A DNA stretch of 29,208 nt, taken from positions 1 through 29,208 of the IMG/VR virus record IMGVR_UViG_3300020159_000927. One strand, given 5' to 3'. The DNA is from a virus. A program made the position numbers and the translations under genes. Under the pieces are notes generated by a model that did not search any database, was not told the origin of the DNA, and saw nothing but the letters and a program-made list of their open reading frames with translations. Shown in pieces: positions 3,126 through 16,944 of the stretch. Each line of letters opens with the position of its first letter. Position 1 is the stretch's first letter.

Positions 3126-3155
3126 ATTATAGCACTGGCACAATCTTTTTGTCAA
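3126..3155 (-). promoter_or_regulatory. Consensus promoter overlapping the glycosyltransferase stop codon
   Basis: Minus strand: TTGACA (3155-3150), 18-base spacer, TATAAT (3131-3126), with TGC before the -10 (extended -10). The stop codon TAA of the glycosyltransferase lies inside the -10 box. The predicted +1 near 3119 would give a leader of about ten bases that is little more than the GGAGG ribosome site of the 75-aa gene. The spacer is one base longer than ideal, and coding sequence supplies the -35, so chance cannot be excluded. Confidence 0.55.
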
Positions 3156-4038
3156 CGAAATTGATGCCAGCAAATGTCTCATATTCTTCAAGGGTTCTAA
3201 CCGACCCTAATGCGTCTGGGCCAATGATCTTACTATCCAGTATCTTGCCTAGCTCGTATTTTGATTTACGGTCTATCTCTTGAATTATATCTGGAAAATC
3301 TTCTCCAACTTGACGCCTTTGGTTTTTTTCTCTTTTAGAGCTATCGTAATATAAATGATATAGATTTTGTTTTCTGGGAAGTAAAAGGTCGTATCCGTGA
3401 GTATAGAGCCTTACTGCTGTCAATATTTCTTCCCCCCAAAAATACATATCTTTGTTTGGTTTAATAGACGCTATGCTACCATCTGAAAATATTGATCCCC
3501 CAGAGACCGATCTTGTAAATATATTGTCGGAAAGATTTGGTACCGCTCTTTGATGAGGAATGTGACAATTATCTTGAAAGCTTAACTCTTCTACAAAATC
3601 AGTATAAGAAACTTCTGTTTTTTCATTTAATATAGTTAATCCGTTTTCACCATACTCGTATGCACCAGGGTAGCAGGACAAAACTGGTTTTAAACCAAGA
3701 TCTTTGTAAAAATTATAATCTTCAATAAGGTGTTCGTCCCAGTTTTTTTCAAATCTAGTATGTGAATCAATTTGAAGATAGTAGTCTTCTCCATTATAAA
3801 AATCATTTGCGATACCCCTGGAAGTTCCCTGGCCAAGGTTGTCTGGGGCCTCGCTAATTTTAAACTTAACATTATCTAAAATTGGAATATCTATATCATT
3901 AGTTTTATAGTAAGATACGTGTAGCCCAAAATTTATTATGTTATTTCCAGAGCTTTTTTTAATAGCATCCCTAACAGTTCTTCCAATTTCATAATCATGA
4001 TAGGAAGGGATTTGAACAAATATACTAGCCATTACCAT
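3127..4038 (-). CDS. GlcNAc-transferase-like glycosyltransferase (GT-A fold)
   Basis: The 303-residue protein matches the pattern of the Skp1/polypeptide GlcNAc-transferase family (Pfam 'Glycosyltransferase (GlcNAc)'). It starts ASIFVQIPSYHDYEIG, has a G-x-SRG donor-site segment at about 71-75, then YYLQIDSHTRF, in which D91-S-H93 is the metal-binding DxH/DxD motif. It ends the core with FWGEEILTAVRLYTHGYD at about 200-217, carrying the likely acidic catalytic pair. The family moves GlcNAc from UDP-GlcNAc to a protein hydroxyl group. There is no signal peptide or membrane segment, so it acts in the cytoplasm. Starts at M1 (4038) or M3 (4032) are both possible; M3 overlaps the upstream TAA stop. 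Its place just after the giant Thr-rich adhesin suggests the target may be a virion protein. Confidence 0.88.
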   Translation of the reverse strand: MVMASIFVQIPSYHDYEIGRTVRDAIKKSSGNNIINFGLHVSYYKTNDIDIPILDNVKFKISEAPDNLGQGTSRGIANDFYNGEDYYLQIDSHTRFEKNWDEHLIEDYNFYKDLGLKPVLSCYPGAYEYGENGLTILNEKTEVSYTDFVEELSFQDNCHIPHQRAVPNLSDNIFTRSVSGGSIFSDGSIASIKPNKDMYFWGEEILTAVRLYTHGYDLLLPRKQNLYHLYYDSSKREKNQRRQVGEDFPDIIQEIDRKSKYELGKILDSKIIGPDALGSVRTLEEYETFAGINFVDKKIVPVL

Positions 4039-4286
4039 TTACCAAGCGGGCAAGAGGCTGCTTTCATTTTTGTTTTAAGCGCCATAAAGCAACCGCATTT
4101 TTTGCATTGTTTAGTCAGGGATATAAGTTCTGGACAAAAATTGCATATATCATATCTAGCATCAGAAGTTTCTCTATCTACGTATTCGGTATTTGGATTA
4201 AGCAAGTCCCAGGGCTTTACATCTTTTTTTCCGCTTTCTTTTGCTTGTTTTTCTAAATACTTTTCAAATCTATTTTTTTCTGTCAT
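4032..4286 (-). CDS. Zinc-ribbon protein of a widespread phage family, 84 aa
   Basis: The N-terminal 45 residues are charged and helical (NRFEKYLEKQAKESGKK). The C-terminal half is a cysteine module: C48-x2-C51, then C61-x2-C64-x-C66, then C79 (RYDICNFCPEL, QCKKCGCFMALK, SCPLGKW). This block with its PLGKW ending is common in tailed-phage genomes. It surely binds zinc, but its role is not established as far as I know. The start overlaps the upstream stop as ATGA, and the stop lies seven bases inside the glycosyltransferase frame, so the three genes are coupled. It could be an accessory or adaptor protein for the transferase; that is inferred from position only. Confidence 0.85.
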   Translation of the reverse strand: MTEKNRFEKYLEKQAKESGKKDVKPWDLLNPNTEYVDRETSDARYDICNFCPELISLTKQCKKCGCFMALKTKMKAASCPLGKW

Positions 4287-4642
4287 GGGTAAAATACCCC
4301 ATCTGTATATTTAGACCCAATAGTAACCCATTGGGATCCGTCTGGAACTTCTATCAGGATAGGATTACTTAACATTATAGAGCCTAGTCTTTCGTCTAAT
4401 TGCATATATTGCTCTTCTCCATCTTGATTATGAATAAGGCTAAGTAGAATTTGCCCATCCTCATATTGCTCTTTTTCTTCCACCCGTGATTCATTAAATA
4501 GATTAAACAGTTCTTTTGAATATATTCCATTTTCAACGACTATACCGTCAATAATAAAACAGGCAAGTGTGTGCAGTTCGGCACTAAAGTTGTGCTCTTG
4601 ACCTTGCACAACAATATGCATGACACCTTTAGATAGTAACAT
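4283..4642 (-). CDS. Unrecognised protein, first gene of the glycosyltransferase cassette
   Basis: A 119-residue acidic, beta-rich protein (for example FIIDGIVVENGIYSKELF, IMLSNPILIEVPDGSQWVTIG) with no recognisable domain. Two starts compete. The ATG at 4642 has no ribosome site, but its A is exactly where the upstream promoter should start transcription, so it could be read leaderless. The ATG at 4621 (residue 8) has AAAGG at a usable distance and would give 112 residues. The stop overlaps the zinc-ribbon start as ATGA. The promoter just upstream makes this the first gene of the cassette ending with the glycosyltransferase. Its function may be tied to virion modification, which is context only. 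Confidence 0.75.
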   Translation of the reverse strand: MLLSKGVMHIVVQGQEHNFSAELHTLACFIIDGIVVENGIYSKELFNLFNESRVEEKEQYEDGQILLSLIHNQDGEEQYMQLDERLGSIMLSNPILIEVPDGSQWVTIGSKYTDGVFYP

Positions 4643-4648
4643 TATTAT

Positions 4649-4677
4649 ATTTTATCAATTCTATCTAATTCTGTCAA
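4649..4677 (-). promoter_or_regulatory. Promoter of the glycosyltransferase cassette
   Basis: Minus strand: TTGACA (4677-4672), 17-base spacer, TAAAAT (4654-4649) with TG one base upstream. All elements match sigma70-type consensus except one -10 base. It lies in the 39-base gap after the giant adhesin gene. Six bases separate the -10 from the ATG at 4642, so the predicted +1 is the A of that start codon. Confidence 0.75.
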
Positions 4678-4681
4678 TACC

Positions 4682-7600
4682 CTAGCAGCCTGCTGGGAAG
4701 TATGTGTTTCCGTCGTATAAACACTGCCCTACATATCCGCAAGGGTTATTTGGATTAGCTACGTCCGCAGAGTTACACTTCCAATAAACCAGCGGTCTAG
4801 CGGTAGTGGTCGGTGCTGCGGTAGTAGTTGTGGTTGCTACTGGCTTGCTAACATTTGGACAACATCCTCCTGAAGGAGAAAGCCCTGCAGGCAATCCAGT
4901 ATATGGAGCCCCAGCATTACAGCACTGAGGTGAATAATAATATGTACCCATGTCACTGTAGTTACATACACATTGTGTAGTGGTAGGTGCTGCAGTTGTA
5001 GTAGTTGTTGCTGGCACACAGCTTCCGTAATCATTTCTATTTGCACAACCAGATGGTGTTACGCAAATTCTGTAATATCTAGAACCTGAAGCACATGTTC
5101 CATATGGGTCTGTTGTTGTATATGGATAAGTTCCATCTGAAGGACTATAAGTATTACATGTAAGGCAAGGATCTGCTGTAGTGGTTGTAGTAGCTGCTGG
5201 AGTAGATATAACTGTATTAGATCCAACAGTAGATTCTCCAGCGGAGTTGCTTCCAACGGTGTACGCTTTAAATTGATCTGGGGTTCCAGATGCTTCACTT
5301 GCAGTAATTGTATGACAACATACACTATTGCCTGTTCCAGATCCAGAGGAAACGGCGGTTCCTGCCCCTGTTGGTGTCTGACCCGTTGCTTTACGAATAG
5401 TAGTTAGATAGCTTATTGGGCTTGTTCCTGACATTGCAGTTACGTTTGCACATATTTGTGTGCCCGCTTGTTGTGTTCCTGTTGGTGTAAGGGTTACGCC
5501 ACCACCGCTTGGTGCAGTTGTTGGATTAACATACGGAGATACTGTAGCTTGGTTTGTATATGCCGTTGCAGTACTATCTACATTTGTAGCGGTTACTTTA
5601 CATCTAATTGGACTAACGTAAGAACTAAAAAAGTTAGCAGGCGGTGAGTATGTGGAGCTTGTTGCACCTGATATATTTAAGAACAAAGAGCCTTGATCGT
5701 TATATTGCCATTGATATGAAATTGCTATTGGGGTTGTGCCGTTCCAGACTCCCTCTGTTGAGCTGTATGTTGTTACTCCAGCATTTCCAGTTGTAGGGCT
5801 AATAGATGGGGCAATGCTATTTGATACTGGAGTTGTTGGCGCAACATAGGGTGTTGATATAACAACATTAGAATATCCAGTTGTGGTTCCATAGGAATTA
5901 GTTGCTGTTCCGTATGCAATAAACCGATCTGGTGTTCCTGAAGCTTCGGTATCTGAGATATAGTGATCAGCTGATGTTGTTCCACTTTCAAGTCCAGTAT
6001 CTGCATTTGTGGGATTTGCACCTGTCTTTTTAAATATCTGAACTGAATATGTAATTGGAGATGTTCCTGAAGTTACAGACACATTTGCTGTAAGTGTTGT
6101 TCTTGCTTGCTGTGTTCCTGTTGGTGTAAGGGTTACGGATATCCCACTTGGTTCGACGCCAACTGGTGTGTTTTGTATTGAATTTGATGTAGCGGTATTG
6201 CCTCCAGCATCATTTGATGCAGTTACAACACAATAAATAGAATAGTAATTATATGTTGAGCTAGAGGTGTAACTGCTTGAATCTGTTCCAACATTTACAG
6301 TACTATAATACGGAGGATATGGAAGCGATGTCTGTGCCTTCCATTGATAGCTATACGCTGTTGGAGAGTTATTCCACGCTCCATTAGTTGTTGAGTAATT
6401 ATATGTACCACTAGTTCTAGTTACAACTGGCGGTGCTAGTTCTATTGCGGTTGGTTTAACAGCTGTAAGCCTTGTTCCAGTTACACCGTCTGCTACTGGG
6501 TACCAAGGAGATGTTCCTACAGAGTTACGTGCTCTAACCCAATACCATCTTGTAACTCCAAGACTTATTGTAGTATCTAAAAATGGTGAAGATTTGTCAG
6601 TAAAATCTGGAACTGCTGAATCTGATGGGTTTGCAGTTTGTGATGTATTCCAAAATATATCATAACCAGTTGCATCGGATGAACCACCAAATGTTAAATT
6701 AACTCCATCACTTCTATTTGTTGTTGCAGTAAGAAATGTTGGGCTTGCAGCACCAGCACTTAGGCTGATTGATACCTGTCTAGTTCCAATGCTTGTAAAT
6801 CCTTGCGGAACGGTAATTAATCTTGCAGTAAACGTTCCATTAGTTGTATAGGTATGATCCCAAGTTGTATAAGATGGATTGCTTGTTCCAGTAGGCCAGG
6901 CTATGTTTTCTACGTTACCGTCACCAAAATCTATTCCATATGATCTTGGGTATGATGCGTTGCCTGAAGGATATGAATTTCCAGTAACAGAAAACCGTAC
7001 TGTTTTAGGCGCAGCACCAGGACTATAGTTATTAGCAGATAATGCACCTTGTGTATGTGAGTGAATATATATTGATCCACCAGTTGACCCATTCATGTAT
7101 GTTGGATATATATTACTACCTGCATGATTAGAAGATACTAACCCTGTGTAATAAGATGCAGAACCTCCAGATTTTGTAGCACTTAGTCTAAACTCAAACC
7201 AGTATTTTGCTTGGCCTCCACCATATGTTGGAGAACCAGATAATATACTTGAGTTTATATAGGTTCTCCATATAACTGTAGCGGATGTACCAGACGGTGA
7301 CACGGAGTATGGGGAAACATCTGTAGGAAATCCACCGCTTATTGTAGCACCCGTGTCATAATTTAAATATACTCCAGTATCTGCTTTGTAAATTCTTGGT
7401 TCAAAATTAAAAGTTGTCCCAGACGTATAGTCTGCTACTTCAGCAACTATTTCAAAATAAGCCTGAGATACAATTCTAGGATCAGATTGATTATCCATTA
7501 CAGTGTCTACTTGACCGTCATAAGTTCTTAGGCTTACACTTGATATAGTAGGTGCTGCTCCAGTAGAACCCCAGTAGCTAACTGGAGAAGAGTAATGTGA

Positions 7601-8524
7601 AGTGTATGAATTTTCTAAATACAACTCTGCAACTATATATTGCCCACTAGATAATGGGGATGATCCAACTGAATAATTATTATATATAGTTAAAACATTT
7701 GAGGTATTAGTATCAGATAAAAAATTTGTATCAATAGAATTGGAAACATAGTCGTATCCTGTTTCAATATCAATTGATTTTAATAATGTGCCTCCAGGAG
7801 ATTTACTAGTATTTTTCCACCATCTTAATAATGGAGTTCCTCCTAGATAGCCGCCTGGTTTTATCCACCAACCCCATCTTATTTGAGCATTAACTTCAAT
7901 AACATCAAGAGTAGAAAATCCACTCTGGCCTTGTAAAACCCCGCCAGTTTCAGAAAGAACTGTATAGCTTACTAACGCTGGCTTTCTTTTAATTACTTTA
8001 ATTGGAGGAGAGTAAGCATCAAGGGCACCGTCTACGTTTGTTGCAAGCATTTGATAGAATACATAATACCCTTCAGCAAGATCTCTATTGGCTTGACTTA
8101 ATGTAGAAAAATCTATAGTGTCATTTCCAGTTAAACTAAATCTTGCTACCTGACCATCAATATTATCAGAACAAAGCATTCTTCTATTTGATAAAGTAAT
8201 TGGAGTTGTGCCCGTAAATGTACCATCATTTCCCCATAGTTTTAAAAATGTTCCAGAGGTGCCTGCGTCTGTACTACAGAATAATTGTGGGCTACTAGCA
8301 ACTGTTCCATTATATCCACCAAGCCTAATGTTAATTGGATCAGTTAGGCTAACAGCTGGCGCATTGCCAGGCCACATCTTTGTCCATCCACTTACAACTT
8401 TAGCCCAAACTCCGCTAGCAGATTTCCAACCAGTAGCGGTATCATTTACTTTTACAAATACCTTTTTTATAGTTCTCCAATCAGTTGAAGAGCCAGTGGT
8501 TGCTGCTTTTATTCTTATTGGCAT
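4682..8524 (-). CDS. Giant modular adhesin / tail fibre (PKD, FN3, Ig-like, Cys-rich tail)
   Basis: The 1280-residue secreted-style protein has no signal peptide and fits a virion adhesin. The first 55 residues carry Trp-anchored short repeats (WRTIKKVFVKVN, WKSASGVWAKV, WTKMW), a pattern I associate with phage fibre attachment regions. Beta-rich sections follow to about 500. Then comes a PKD domain at about 505-590 (FGDGNVENIAW, WDHTYTTNGTF) and an FN3 domain at about 590-690 (TGYDIFWNTS, WYWVRARN). After these, Ig-like modules (about 698-785 and 896-1000, with SYQWKAQ and SYQWQYN) alternate with two copies of a second module (about 786-893 and 1001-1105). Residues 1110-1280 are three Cys-rich modules joined by linkers of type TTTTTAAPTTT. 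The start has AGGAA five bases upstream, overlapping the previous stop. Likely role is binding the host surface. Confidence 0.88.
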   Translation of the reverse strand: MPIRIKAATTGSSTDWRTIKKVFVKVNDTATGWKSASGVWAKVVSGWTKMWPGNAPAVSLTDPINIRLGGYNGTVASSPQLFCSTDAGTSGTFLKLWGNDGTFTGTTPITLSNRRMLCSDNIDGQVARFSLTGNDTIDFSTLSQANRDLAEGYYVFYQMLATNVDGALDAYSPPIKVIKRKPALVSYTVLSETGGVLQGQSGFSTLDVIEVNAQIRWGWWIKPGGYLGGTPLLRWWKNTSKSPGGTLLKSIDIETGYDYVSNSIDTNFLSDTNTSNVLTIYNNYSVGSSPLSSGQYIVAELYLENSYTSHYSSPVSYWGSTGAAPTISSVSLRTYDGQVDTVMDNQSDPRIVSQAYFEIVAEVADYTSGTTFNFEPRIYKADTGVYLNYDTGATISGGFPTDVSPYSVSPSGTSATVIWRTYINSSILSGSPTYGGGQAKYWFEFRLSATKSGGSASYYTGLVSSNHAGSNIYPTYMNGSTGGSIYIHSHTQGALSANNYSPGAAPKTVRFSVTGNSYPSGNASYPRSYGIDFGDGNVENIAWPTGTSNPSYTTWDHTYTTNGTFTARLITVPQGFTSIGTRQVSISLSAGAASPTFLTATTNRSDGVNLTFGGSSDATGYDIFWNTSQTANPSDSAVPDFTDKSSPFLDTTISLGVTRWYWVRARNSVGTSPWYPVADGVTGTRLTAVKPTAIELAPPVVTRTSGTYNYSTTNGAWNNSPTAYSYQWKAQTSLPYPPYYSTVNVGTDSSSYTSSSTYNYYSIYCVVTASNDAGGNTATSNSIQNTPVGVEPSGISVTLTPTGTQQARTTLTANVSVTSGTSPITYSVQIFKKTGANPTNADTGLESGTTSADHYISDTEASGTPDRFIAYGTATNSYGTTTGYSNVVISTPYVAPTTPVSNSIAPSISPTTGNAGVTTYSSTEGVWNGTTPIAISYQWQYNDQGSLFLNISGATSSTYSPPANFFSSYVSPIRCKVTATNVDSTATAYTNQATVSPYVNPTTAPSGGGVTLTPTGTQQAGTQICANVTAMSGTSPISYLTTIRKATGQTPTGAGTAVSSGSGTGNSVCCHTITASEASGTPDQFKAYTVGSNSAGESTVGSNTVISTPAATTTTTADPCLTCNTYSPSDGTYPYTTTDPYGTCASGSRYYRICVTPSGCANRNDYGSCVPATTTTTAAPTTTQCVCNYSDMGTYYYSPQCCNAGAPYTGLPAGLSPSGGCCPNVSKPVATTTTTAAPTTTARPLVYWKCNSADVANPNNPCGYVGQCLYDGNTYFPAGC
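4790..5200 (-). repeat. Thr-rich linkers separating cysteine-rich modules
   Basis: Three near-identical coding stretches of Thr codons, about 4793-4843, 4968-5020 and 5175-5200, encode linkers of type ATTTTTAAPTTT. Between and after them lie Cys-rich modules with 8, 6 and 4 cysteines by eye. The DNA is a run of GTAGTNGT-like units on the plus strand. These repeats also create spurious Leu/Gln-rich frames in the same region. Confidence 0.75.
5200..6165 (-). repeat. Tandem duplicated module pair inside the adhesin gene
   Basis: A module of about 105 residues occurs twice, encoded at about 5848-6165 and 5200-5520, separated by an Ig-like module. Shared marks are LTPTGTQQA, SGTSPI and EASGTPD. 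At DNA level the copies share a 27-base identical block at 5472-5498 and 6111-6137, while most other positions differ at third codon bases. This points to an old duplication kept uniform in part by recombination or constraint. Confidence 0.75.
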
Positions 8525-13188: not shown

Positions 13189-13216
13189 ATTATACCATTT
13201 GTTAGCTATATATCGA
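13189..13216 (-). promoter_or_regulatory. Extended -10 promoter for a leaderless transcript
   Basis: Minus strand: -10 TATAAT (13194-13189) preceded by TGG (extended -10), with a weak -35 TCGATA (13216-13211) at 16 bases. The six bases between the -10 and the ATG at 13182 put the predicted +1 on the A of the start codon. It occupies the 19-base gap after the hub-like gene and replaces a ribosome site. Confidence 0.55.
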
Positions 13217-14920
13217 TCTAGCTGTTAAGGTAGTCTCCAATCCGTCTGACCATGATTGTCGGACATTAGTTATAACAAATTTATCAGATACTGTTAAGTC
13301 TTGATACGGATAGTCTACCGTAACAATATCCCCCACAGAAATTGTTGGGTTGGCCAATACCGTCATATTAATAACTCTCTGCCTTTTGCTCCATTGGGTT
13401 TTAATCCAATCACTTAGCTTCTTGGCATCCCCTGGATTTTGAATCCATGTGGAGTCCATTGTCATCTGCTCTTTAATTTCATACTTATTTGTTTCCTCAT
13501 CAAAATAAACTAAATCTTCGCTCTTCATAAGAGAGTTTCCAAACACGCTCAATTTAGTTCCATCTGAGGAAGAAACTTCGGTAGTTACCCCCGCAGCGTT
13601 TAATATATACGCTGTGGCCCCAAACGATGTTAAATCGTATCCCAAAAAGGCAACGGAGTTGTTTAAATTATTATACATGTATTTAGGAAGCTTAGGCTCT
13701 TGATCTTGATATTTAGAAGAGAAGACTCTTAGCTCTCTGGCCACTGAGCCAAATTCCTCTACATATCTTGTTGAAGTCTGAGAGTCTATCTGATCTATTC
13801 CGCTGGCAAGCATATCTCCGTAGGCTAAAGAAAATGATGACTTTGAAAATTGAGACCCGTATATGTTTTCTAGATCTGCAGTTTTATATTGATCCTCGGT
13901 GATTGCAAGGGCATAAACATAATCAAAATTTATTGTGCCCATATTAACAGCTAGAGATATTTTAGATGTTTTTGGCAAAATTGTGTTAGATGTAGATACA
14001 TGTGTATCTGTTGCTGTTATCTTAAATCCATTAATATATGCGGATATATAAACCTTTGTTGATGTTACCTTTACCCTGACGTCTACTTTGTATGGGACTG
14101 CCGCCGTAATTGACCCTACGTTATTCTTTGCATTAGTAACAGACTGGCTATCTGTAATTACTTTTTGAGAATTTTTTACAACTTTTCCAATAGAAAACTC
14201 GTCACCATTTGATTTTGCGTTTGCAGTAGTTTTAATTTTAATAAAGTATCCATTTGAAGAAGTTCCAGATACAAAGAATCCAAAGGCTCCCGATTGCAGG
14301 GATGTGGATTCTGTTGAAGTAAAGTATAGTGTAGTACCAAAAGCATAGTAGTTTGATGTTGTTGCTAGCCCCGTGTCTTTTACCGCAGCACAATAGCTGT
14401 TAGCGTTTGTATTTTCAGCATGTATGCTAAACAAAGATTTACTAATTGCAATTTTTGTTGACTCGCCTGGAAGCAATACGGCTGCTGGTACTTCTTCTCC
14501 GTCGTAGGTATCTTCTGGGGTTTCTGTTTTACCAAAAAGATCTGAAGAGTAGGCTGGAACTACAAAACTAAAATAATTATATGAGCCAGCCTGCCCCGTA
14601 CCAGATGCGGCTGCGTATCCTATTGACCTAGCGTAATATGTTTTTCCTGGAGTTAGCCCGCTAATTGTAAATTGCCCAACTCCGTTTGAAATCGAATTAA
14701 TAATAATATTATCTTTTATTGTTGAAAATATATAATCTGTATAAACTTGACCTCTAATGCTTAAAACATTTGATGGAGCATTAAATGTTAGTGTACCTCC
14801 TACAGATGTAGAAGAGGCAGTAAAGTTAGTAGTATCTACATCAAATAGCGGATTAGACAAAAGCAAAAGAGCTTGTGCTACTGATATGGTTTCACTTCTA
14901 TAATCGTCCCAGGCTCCCAT
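13202..14920 (-). CDS. Baseplate hub-like tail protein with lectin-like insert
   Basis: I place the start at ATG 14920, which overlaps the upstream TAA as TAATG (572 residues). An in-frame ATG at 14953 would add 11 residues inside the previous gene. Residues about 80-115 look like an FN3-type strand set (TISGLTPGKTYYARSIGY). About 160-330 resemble a concanavalin-like beta sandwich (FSIHAENTNANSYC, GFFVSGTSSNGYFIKI, VKVTSTKVYISAYING). The C-terminal section from about 440 (DSTWIQNPGDAKKLSDWI, then VGDIVTVDYPYQDL at about 525 and FVITNVRQSW) matches the closing part of tail hub proteins (gp27/XkdQ-like), where a GD-x-V strand precedes the last beta domain. The tail-tip hub role is inferred. The upstream gene seems to hold the other half of the hub. 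Confidence 0.8.
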   Translation of the reverse strand: MGAWDDYRSETISVAQALLLLSNPLFDVDTTNFTASSTSVGGTLTFNAPSNVLSIRGQVYTDYIFSTIKDNIIINSISNGVGQFTISGLTPGKTYYARSIGYAAASGTGQAGSYNYFSFVVPAYSSDLFGKTETPEDTYDGEEVPAAVLLPGESTKIAISKSLFSIHAENTNANSYCAAVKDTGLATTSNYYAFGTTLYFTSTESTSLQSGAFGFFVSGTSSNGYFIKIKTTANAKSNGDEFSIGKVVKNSQKVITDSQSVTNAKNNVGSITAAVPYKVDVRVKVTSTKVYISAYINGFKITATDTHVSTSNTILPKTSKISLAVNMGTINFDYVYALAITEDQYKTADLENIYGSQFSKSSFSLAYGDMLASGIDQIDSQTSTRYVEEFGSVARELRVFSSKYQDQEPKLPKYMYNNLNNSVAFLGYDLTSFGATAYILNAAGVTTEVSSSDGTKLSVFGNSLMKSEDLVYFDEETNKYEIKEQMTMDSTWIQNPGDAKKLSDWIKTQWSKRQRVINMTVLANPTISVGDIVTVDYPYQDLTVSDKFVITNVRQSWSDGLETTLTARSIYS

Positions 14921-16944
14921 TATTTCCAGACCACCGCCTTGTATGGAGTCCAACCAGCTGCTTCAGCTGCTGGGCTGGCATAGTGGTTTGCTTTCTTTGT
15001 TCCAAAGGCTCCTCTTGTTTTAATTCTATACCTATGTGTTGGGGCTACTGTAGTTTTGTATGTTGTAATATTTGAATCTGTTATAACTTTCCCAAGCCCC
15101 AGATACCTAGACAAATCTGACTTTGAGCTAACATCTATGTATTTATAAACTCCTGTTATGGCGTCTTGATAAACATATTCAATTGCATCATATTCAATTA
15201 TTTCTGAATCAATTAAAACGTATCCGTTAAAAGGAACAAACGTTGGTGTATTTGGGTCTAGTATTTCATTGGCCTTAACCTCAATAATCTGGAGGCCCAT
15301 ATAGTGATTAACGTGTGGTACATGAGGAGTTACCTTTGGATCTGCCGATTCTAAGATATTTGTTTTGATTGCTGCCGCCATTATAGCGTCGTCAGTGTAT
15401 TCAAGTATTTCGTGGGAAGACTTATCGTATGTTGCTTCTGATACTGTCTTATATCTAATATTAATTTGATTAATTGAAGGCATTTCTTTTTTAGATAGAT
15501 CTATGATGTTTGGCAACAAGGCTCCAGATGCGGTGTGTCTAAATTGCCAAGATGTAGGATTAGATGAGTTAAATAAGTAGTCTCTTGTATAAAACTGAAG
15601 CACATTATACTCATCAACCAAAGCTGTAATTTGAGAATCTCTACATAAGTCCTGAATGTTATCCCATACAGTTACAGATCCATTTCCGCCAGTATTTGAA
15701 GAAGAACTCCACCAGTAGGTAGGGACTATGACTGACCCGTCTGTGTCTGTATAATTGAAATTATAATTTGTATATCCTACTGAGTCTAGCATTCTTCTAA
15801 TAATTGCAATTGCTGAGTAGTTGTTACATACCATATCTGGACAAATAGTCTGCTGTAGTATTTTTGCAGAGTCTAAGGCAAATATGTTTACGTCTCCTAC
15901 GTCAGAGATGTTCCATGTGTCTATATAGAATAAACCCTGTGGAATTTTATAATAGGCTCCTTTTGAATCTGTAAATGTTCCATCTGCGTGATAGACCTTT
16001 ATGTATGCAGTTATTTCAGCATCCCTTACTAAATATACCTTTGAGGTATCAAATGTTTCAGTAATATTATATTTGTTAAATCCTTTAAACTGAAGAGATG
16101 TTTGGTTATACCTTACAATGTTAAGATCTAGGGAGTTAGCAGTACAGTACCCGACTGGTAGAAGTTCTTCTGTACTTGCATTTTGCTCTTTAACAATATC
16201 AAAAGACACGATATCATTTGATAAATCTCTTACCATATGTGGGGCTACTTCTATTACCCCAATCCATCCGCCAGGGTTTACTGCTGTAAGTCCAAGTGAG
16301 TTTACATTTACAAATGCGTTGTAATTCAATTCTGATTCTAGCAAGCTCCATGTTGTTCCTGTATAGTAAATAGTAACTGTTCCTGCATCGTAGTTTTTAG
16401 TTGTAATTAAACCCACGGTAGAAGTAAATGGCTTAACTGCTGTACCCGTCTTTAGAACAGTTCCTCCGTTTGCAGAAATTGTCCAAGAAGAAGGTGTTGC
16501 ATGAGATGTCTCAAACTTAACAACAACCTTGTTTACTGGTATTGTTTTTGGGTAAGCAATAGCAAGATTAGCATTCGTATCTTTTGGAGACACCCAATAC
16601 TTATAGTATGAATCTTTAGATGCATAGTATGTTCTATAGTTTAGCTGATATGGTGTTGTTGTTGGATTCTTAAAAGTGCCACCTGTAACATCTCCGCTAA
16701 TTGCATACTTTACTCCCGCCAGCAGGGGCCTATTTGGTTTAATAACAGTATCAATTGGAAATAGCTTTTTAAATGGAGTTCTTCCATTAATTACTGTATC
16801 TGCATTTCCTGTTACTGGGGTAGTTACTTTATCCCAGTCTATCATTGTATTTAAATTAATATCAAGGGTCGCCCCAACATTCATGGAGATGCTTGTACTC
16901 TTCTCAAAAATGTCTTTTACTTTGGAATCTACTGTGACTGCCAT
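14920..16944 (-). CDS. Minor tail / hub-like protein
   Basis: A 674-residue protein. The N-terminal third has DWDKVTTPV and beta-rich binding-type strands (KYWVSPKDTN, SSWTISANGGTVL). About 235-300 (GWIGVIEVAPHMVRDLSN, VSFDIVKEQN) matches the start of the hub domain common in actinobacterial siphophage minor tail proteins. About 365-450 contains CPDMVCNNYSAIAIIRRML, a GYTNYNF turn, TVWDNIQDLCRDSQI and VDEYNVLQFYTRDYL, the characteristic helix-strand block of that family. The C-terminus has oxidoreductase-free beta strands and a basic end. The ATG has AGG with a five-base spacer. It overlaps the next gene as TAATG. Its role is to form the distal tail ring or hub that carries fibres; this is inferred from family style and order. 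Confidence 0.83.
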   Translation of the reverse strand: MAVTVDSKVKDIFEKSTSISMNVGATLDINLNTMIDWDKVTTPVTGNADTVINGRTPFKKLFPIDTVIKPNRPLLAGVKYAISGDVTGGTFKNPTTTPYQLNYRTYYASKDSYYKYWVSPKDTNANLAIAYPKTIPVNKVVVKFETSHATPSSWTISANGGTVLKTGTAVKPFTSTVGLITTKNYDAGTVTIYYTGTTWSLLESELNYNAFVNVNSLGLTAVNPGGWIGVIEVAPHMVRDLSNDIVSFDIVKEQNASTEELLPVGYCTANSLDLNIVRYNQTSLQFKGFNKYNITETFDTSKVYLVRDAEITAYIKVYHADGTFTDSKGAYYKIPQGLFYIDTWNISDVGDVNIFALDSAKILQQTICPDMVCNNYSAIAIIRRMLDSVGYTNYNFNYTDTDGSVIVPTYWWSSSSNTGGNGSVTVWDNIQDLCRDSQITALVDEYNVLQFYTRDYLFNSSNPTSWQFRHTASGALLPNIIDLSKKEMPSINQINIRYKTVSEATYDKSSHEILEYTDDAIMAAAIKTNILESADPKVTPHVPHVNHYMGLQIIEVKANEILDPNTPTFVPFNGYVLIDSEIIEYDAIEYVYQDAITGVYKYIDVSSKSDLSRYLGLGKVITDSNITTYKTTVAPTHRYRIKTRGAFGTKKANHYASPAAEAAGWTPYKAVVWK

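Follow-up and report, generated by a model that had tools for sequence, protein, structure and literature searches.

Our analysis of a 29.2-kb virus fragment (29,208 nucleotides, IMG/VR record IMGVR_UViG_3300020159_000927; the window), which comes from a freshwater phage and carries its main genes on the minus strand, points to a phage that probably sugar-coats its own adhesin. Three coupled genes lie behind the adhesin gene, at 4642-3127 on the minus strand, and encode a protein of 119 amino acids (aa), a zinc-ribbon protein and a glycosyltransferase of the PF11397 family. The gene content of the cassette, the predicted fold and conserved residues of its transferase, a conserved promoter-like site and the co-inheritance of the transferase with Thr/Ala/Pro linkers were seen directly. 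Because relatives keep the transferase almost only together with mucin-like Thr stretches, we consider it quite probable, on the evidence of sequence comparison, that a modular cassette O-glycosylates the linkers of the phage's own adhesin.

The co-inheritance was followed in three differently anchored sets of loci (denoted L002 and so on), gathered on the transferase, on a tail protein shared by 80 sister phages and on the zinc ribbon. Linkers were recognised by a 10-residue Thr/Ala/Pro definition. In the transferase-anchored set, from which near-duplicates had been removed, a linker protein lay within 4 kb upstream in 38 of the 41 phage loci that have both transferase and zinc ribbon, and downstream in none of 35; the shortest of these proteins has about 170 aa and the longest more than 1500 aa, and many are seemingly unrelated in their N-terminal parts. 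Among the sister phages, linkers were present in 4/5 loci with the transferase versus 3/75 without it (Fisher p = 1e-4), and in the zinc-ribbon-anchored set in 12/16 versus 10/42 (p = 6e-4), p-values which, here and below, are indicative, because a few loci appear in more than one set and the sequences are only partly independent of one another. The sister phages with a linker and no transferase include one whose contig ends inside the cassette (L266) and one with a TPTP linker and an oxygenase (L271). Such linkers are found in 7 of the 589 open reading frames (ORFs) of at least 180 aa in the 80 sister loci, and in 5/80 bacterial PF11397 loci. A strict definition (12 residues, only Thr, Ala or Pro) missed runs of 11 Thr, for example in L002-L004, and was replaced by the 10-residue one; since it gave 34/41 upstream, 0/35 downstream and 3/5 versus 3/75 among the sisters (p = 0.002), the conclusion is independent of the linker definition. 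Requiring at least 11 Thr in 15 residues gave 3/5 versus 1/75 in the sister set (p = 5e-4).

A natural swap between near-identical phages shows the same association. On either side of the locus (over 1511 and 2123 bases), L002 and L269 share 97% identity, and the block replaced between these flanks comprises the distal adhesin, the partner gene and the zinc ribbon. L002 has the transferase and PPACTTTTTTTTTTTSC, with its run of 11 Thr, whereas L269 has no transferase and carries PPACPTTTWYC instead, as does L265, which is also without the transferase. The sequence-only reading of this DNA had proposed that the phage decorates its own fibre by means of the transferase, and had looked to related phages for a lack of co-occurrence that would speak against it; the two do co-occur there, and the three sets, the L002/L269 pair and the fold described next support the proposal, the glycan itself being predicted.

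The transferase matches PF11397 ('GlcNAc') over about 190 residues (E = 2e-34, 120 bits against a cut-off of 21) and the glycosyltransferase family phrog_24687 (E = 3.5e-29). The start common to its relatives is probably the Met at 4032, giving 301 aa. The Pfam match bears out the suggestion that it belongs to the family adding N-acetylglucosamine (GlcNAc) to protein hydroxyls, an activity predicted here from sequence. D89 and H91 (DxH), W98, E202 and H226 are invariant in 44 homologues, and G200 and E201 are conserved in at least 90% of them; we take D89, H91, the later His and the WGEE motif to be the metal and acceptor residues of a GT-A enzyme, their catalytic role being presumed. The AlphaFold model, made with an alignment of 44 phage members, has a predicted local distance difference test score (pLDDT) of 94.5 and a predicted template modelling score (pTM) of 0.93. 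The first 49 Foldseek matches in the PDB were all polypeptide N-acetylgalactosamine (GalNAc)-transferases, as were the first 29 rows from VIA-align (Z 18-22 over about 260 residues), other glycosyltransferases reaching 17.3 at most. The modelled fold is that of polypeptide O-glycosyltransferases, a match that alone is no proof of function.

Mucin-type polypeptide GalNAc-transferases of glycosyltransferase family 27 (GT27), whose substrates are Thr/Ser/Pro/Ala-rich peptides, are therefore the best structural match, across the whole catalytic domain. The alignments nevertheless show 12-17% identity and end near residue 439 of GalNAc-T2; the window enzyme ends with the catalytic domain, the C-terminal ricin-type lectin domain being absent, and its sugar donor may differ. 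A profile of the 44 sequences found no match among PDB chains at E<=1, and phmmer with the transferase returned unrelated lipases only (E > 0.7) and no GT27 sequence. Given no sequence-level relation to GT27 and no lectin domain, we filed the enzyme under PF11397/GT60. Characterised GT60 members act on protein hydroxyls, and membership of the same Pfam family as the GT60 enzyme Skp1 Gnt1 of Dictyostelium and Toxoplasma leads us to expect a GlcNAc donor. No GT60 crystal structure occurred in the Foldseek or VIA-align match lists, which is not evidence that none exists.

The adhesin consists of a beta-rich body followed by three Cys-rich domains with three Thr/Ala/Pro linkers between (Table 1). 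It has no Pfam or PHROG match, and homologues are present in L002-L012 and other loci. The codons of the Thr runs are mixed (ACT/ACA/ACC), which argues against a simple DNA repeat; identical neighbouring codons occur mostly at chance frequency or below, and slippage as the origin of the runs was rejected. We propose that the cassette would modify the adhesin encoded just upstream, the transferase adding an N-acetylhexosamine (HexNAc), probably GlcNAc, to Thr hydroxyls of the linkers while the adhesin is still in the host cytoplasm, either ahead of virion assembly or as it proceeds. The glycosylated linkers could then form stiff mucin-like spacers between the Cys-rich tip domains, while the 119-aa protein and the zinc ribbon may serve the Cys-rich tip in folding, in metal loading or in recruiting enzymes. 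We infer the substrate, the sugar and the timing, and likewise the benefit, which might be spacing, protease resistance, shielding or altered adhesion.

Table 1. Features of the adhesin and the cassette behind it, in window coordinates.
Feature	Position	Strand	Basis
Adhesin, 1280 aa, last structural gene of the tail module	4682..8524	-	ORF call; tail genes and tape measure precede
Linker 1, STPAATTTTTA	5174..5206	-	sequence
Linker 2, PATTTTTAAPTTT, predicted O-glycosylation substrate	4976..5014	-	substrate role suggested by co-occurrence
Linker 3, ATTTTTAAPTTTA, predicted O-glycosylation substrate	4799..4837	-	substrate role suggested by co-occurrence
C-terminal Cys-rich tip of adhesin (VYWKCNSADVANPNNPCGYVGQCLYDGNTYFPAGC)	4685..4798	-	sequence
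Promoter-like site, TTGACA-17-TAAAAT, 11/12 match	4649..4677	-	sequence; few bases before ATG of 119-aa gene
119-aa partner protein, family of unknown function	4283..4642	-	ORF; AlphaFold pLDDT 85.4
Zinc-ribbon protein, 84 aa, ends CPLGKW	4032..4286	-	phrog_13558, E = 6e-17
PF11397 glycosyltransferase, 303 aa, predicted polypeptide O-glycosyltransferase	3127..4038	-	Pfam, model, PDB fold matches
Second promoter-like site, TTGACA-18-TATAAT, 12/12 match; at end of transferase gene, before next gene, bounds cassette	3126..3155	-	sequence

Several observations weigh against self-glycosylation of the adhesin. PF11397 occurs in only 2/80 sampled poly-Thr viral contigs, most Thr-rich viral proteins being without it, and viral PF11397 genes that lack the zinc ribbon have no linker nearby in L067, L069, L070 and L073. 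Three loci with transferase and zinc ribbon have no detected linker (L051, L064 and L039, whose adhesin is off the contig), and zinc-ribbon and 119-aa genes are also found without the transferase. The 1280-residue adhesin with C-terminal Thr/Ala/Pro linkers that had been described from the sequence is present, but its Thr runs are modest, 5 + 3 Thr broken by AAP, where relatives reach 15 or more. Finally, tail-fibre regions are recombination hot spots and some of the co-inheritance could be linkage; the downstream and sister-phage comparisons argue against linkage alone.

The transferase might instead alter the host surface (a cell-wall polymer, capsule or glycoprotein), for instance to block superinfection, and owe its place next to the adhesin simply to the clustering of host-interaction genes. 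The host-recognition glycosyltransferases of pelagimyophages have been read in this way (PMC7029224), and the cassette has a promoter-like site of its own. We nevertheless consider this unlikely, since the nearest folds are polypeptide O-glycosyltransferases, the presence of the transferase tracks the adhesin linker among close relatives, in-cassette oxygenases track the Pro content of linkers (see below), and no cell-wall synthesis genes were recognisable near the transferase by ORF, Pfam or PHROG annotation of the window. It is quite unlikely that the target of the transferase is some other protein of the virion or host, the Thr linkers being a passive correlate of Cys-tip adhesins that moves with them in one recombination block. 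Exchange of the adhesin end together with partner and zinc ribbon as a block is evident, and zinc ribbons go with Cys tips whether or not a linker is present, but within the zinc-ribbon-bearing loci the transferase still tracks the linker (the 12/16 versus 10/42 above), and sisters with a zinc ribbon and a Cys tip that are without the transferase (L203, L265, L269) are also without a Thr run. Glycosylation of phage DNA bases or of a small molecule is highly improbable, for although phage DNA glucosylation is well known it involves different enzyme families, no base-hypermodification gene was recognised beside the transferase, and the locus sits at the end of the tail module and encodes a fold matching protein-acting enzymes.

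The sequence-only reading had also drawn the zinc ribbon and an unknown partner into a dedicated glycosylation system. Both genes are present and coupled, but their association seems to be with the Cys-rich tip of the adhesin and not with the transferase itself. A Cys-rich adhesin tip was found in 9/9 zinc-ribbon-bearing loci of the sister set versus 2/71 others (p = 2e-10), and in 39/58 zinc-ribbon-adjacent proteins versus 4/340 other ORFs in the zinc-ribbon-anchored set. The divergence of the partner follows that of the tip (Mantel r = 0.68; 0.59 with transferase divergence removed), and the adhesin of L074 has a tip near-identical to that of the window, the rest of the protein being different. 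Since both genes track the tip in these comparisons, they probably serve the tip and the transferase the linkers, the 119-aa protein being a probable chaperone or adaptor; its model found no PDB match at E<=0.001. In the zinc-ribbon protein, which scores 26.8 bits against DUF6171, just below the 27-bit cut-off, all Cys and the terminal KW are invariant in 28 homologues and the C-terminal pattern CPxxKW is present. A role for it as a dedicated transferase subunit is not supported, the zinc ribbon being found without the transferase in L203, L265, L269, L271 and many others. It is very common in viral contigs (at least 592 relatives), usually behind a Cys-tip protein (L364-L443), and the enzymes encoded downstream of it in these loci vary, including oxygenases, PF11397, GT61, GDP-mannose-dehydratase-like and DUF6065 proteins.

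The cassette genes are coupled through an ATGA overlap between the 119-aa and zinc-ribbon genes and a TAATG overlap between the zinc-ribbon stop and the transferase start. Similar promoter-like boxes lie few bases from the ATG in most relatives compared, so that the short promoter-driven cassette directly after the adhesin, as first read, holds as a sequence prediction. Their closeness to the ATG, in relatives as well, suggests that the transcript is probably leaderless.

Phage self-glycosylation has a precedent. The glycosyltransferases of mycobacteriophages Che8 and Rita are thought to decorate the phages' own structural proteins (Freeman et al., 2023, as cited in PMC11256854); the target reported for them is the major capsid protein, and the transferase genes of the related phage Maravista lie near the 3' end of the genome. 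In the window the predicted target is an adhesin, whose gene neighbours that of the PF11397 enzyme. As Che8/Rita self-glycosylation is already reported, the window system is a variation on a known theme, in which the new elements would be the PF11397 enzyme, adhesin linkers as a different predicted target, and the exchange of a modular cassette along with the adhesin end. The literature searched, in which most subscription journals were outside coverage, held nothing relevant on PF11397/GT60 in phages or on glycosylation of Thr-rich fibres. Serine-rich repeat adhesins of bacteria and their transferases are also encoded together. These glycoproteins of Gram-positive bacteria are low-complexity, hydroxyl-rich and glycosylated in the cell before export (PMC7948813); they differ in being bacterial surface proteins that use accessory Sec export and other transferase families. 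Pelagimyophages carry glycosyltransferase and radical S-adenosylmethionine (SAM) cassettes beside their tail fibres (PMC7029224), in different phages, mainly with GT8 enzymes and with lipopolysaccharide modification proposed by the authors rather than fibre glycosylation.

The glycan of the Skp1 pathway is attached to hydroxyproline: a prolyl hydroxylase acts first, and glycosyltransferases, Gnt1 among them, then assemble the sugar chain (PMC11570480). Some related phage cassettes (L055, L077 and L267, for example) likewise pair a 2-oxoglutarate (2OG) oxygenase with PF11397, a likeness in parts only; the window differs in that its transferase is phage-encoded, beside an adhesin and without a 2OG oxygenase gene in the cassette, which is why Thr rather than hydroxyproline would be its acceptor. 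A 2OG-Fe(II) oxygenase (PF13640) lies inside the cassette in 6/8 clusters with a linker Pro/Thr ratio of at least 0.4 versus 0/27 below it (p = 1.7e-5), and several related cassettes have an NAD-dependent sugar epimerase after the transferase; in-cassette oxygenases and epimerases are as expected for protein glycosylation. The oxygenase gene either separates the zinc-ribbon and transferase genes or follows the zinc ribbon, with TP/AP-repeat linkers, in L055/L059, L061, L077, L267, L271, L033 and L041, and by analogy such cassettes represent possible phage hydroxyproline glycosylation. A radical SAM/SPASM enzyme lies between zinc ribbon and transferase behind Cys-tip adhesins in L045 (9000-10004), L021, L029, L037, L040, L062, L074 and others, and might possibly carry out peptide maturation chemistry on the adhesin. 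Other related cassettes carry DUF7164 or GT61. In L053 (9140-10924) a DUF7164 domain precedes PF11397 in one 594-aa protein, and in L018 and L020 a DUF7164 gene lies ahead of the transferase gene; this suggests that DUF7164 proteins are glycosyltransferases with the same adhesins as targets.

We regard it as evenly balanced whether aquatic phages carry an unrecognised class of interchangeable adhesin-maturation cassettes, recognisable by a zinc ribbon with the CPxGKW motif and by a partner protein specific to the tip, that customise adhesin ends by Thr O-glycosylation (PF11397, poly-Thr), by hydroxyproline glycosylation (2OG oxygenase and PF11397, TP/AP repeats; the phage equivalent of the Skp1 pathway of eukaryotes) and by radical SAM/SPASM chemistry, perhaps on Cys-rich tips. 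The receptor-binding proteins of phages are commonly regarded as unmodified polypeptides. If a cassette that is widespread and recombines glycosylates adhesin linkers as proposed, and in relatives probably hydroxylates them or alters them in other ways, host range, adsorption and particle stability would depend on post-translational chemistry not visible in the adhesin sequence, recombinant adhesins produced without the cassette may misbehave, and mucin-type O-glycosylation would have a phage counterpart. Compact enzyme-substrate pairs encoded by neighbouring genes would be useful for studying polypeptide O-glycosylation in bacteria.

Isolated phages yielded no close homologue of the transferase and three distant ones (24-30% identity), in Xanthomonas phage XacN1 and two Stenotrophomonas phages, none adjoining annotated tail genes; at least two glycoproteins are reported in XacN1 virions, with no link to the PF11397 gene. 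Homologues in the bacterial collection are only about 28-33% identical, and no recent bacterial donor was thus found there. A second viral PF11397 class, of 398-418 aa and without the zinc ribbon, adjoins TPTP-linker proteins (L066, L078, L079, L081), and in L067, L069, L070, L073 and L076 PF11397 lies in another conserved viral neighbourhood with no linkers or zinc ribbon nearby. Runs of at least 12 Thr occur often in viral contigs, most of which have no PF11397 (L082-L161), and poly-Thr was rejected as a predictor of the transferase on the 2/80 count above; since poly-Thr viral proteins are common and mostly without PF11397, the dependence runs one way, from transferase to linker.

The window carries a siphovirus tail module with a head-tail adaptor, tape measure, minor tail proteins, a tail protein and a 1135-aa protein, followed by the adhesin. 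The closest isolates by the tail protein are Streptomyces phages (about 32-33% identity), making an actinobacterial host plausible. At 13202-16944, two overlapping ORFs match successive stretches of a single minor tail protein family (phrog_10359), and as the same split (at about 14.9 kb) is kept in 67/77 sister loci, it is not a sequencing error.

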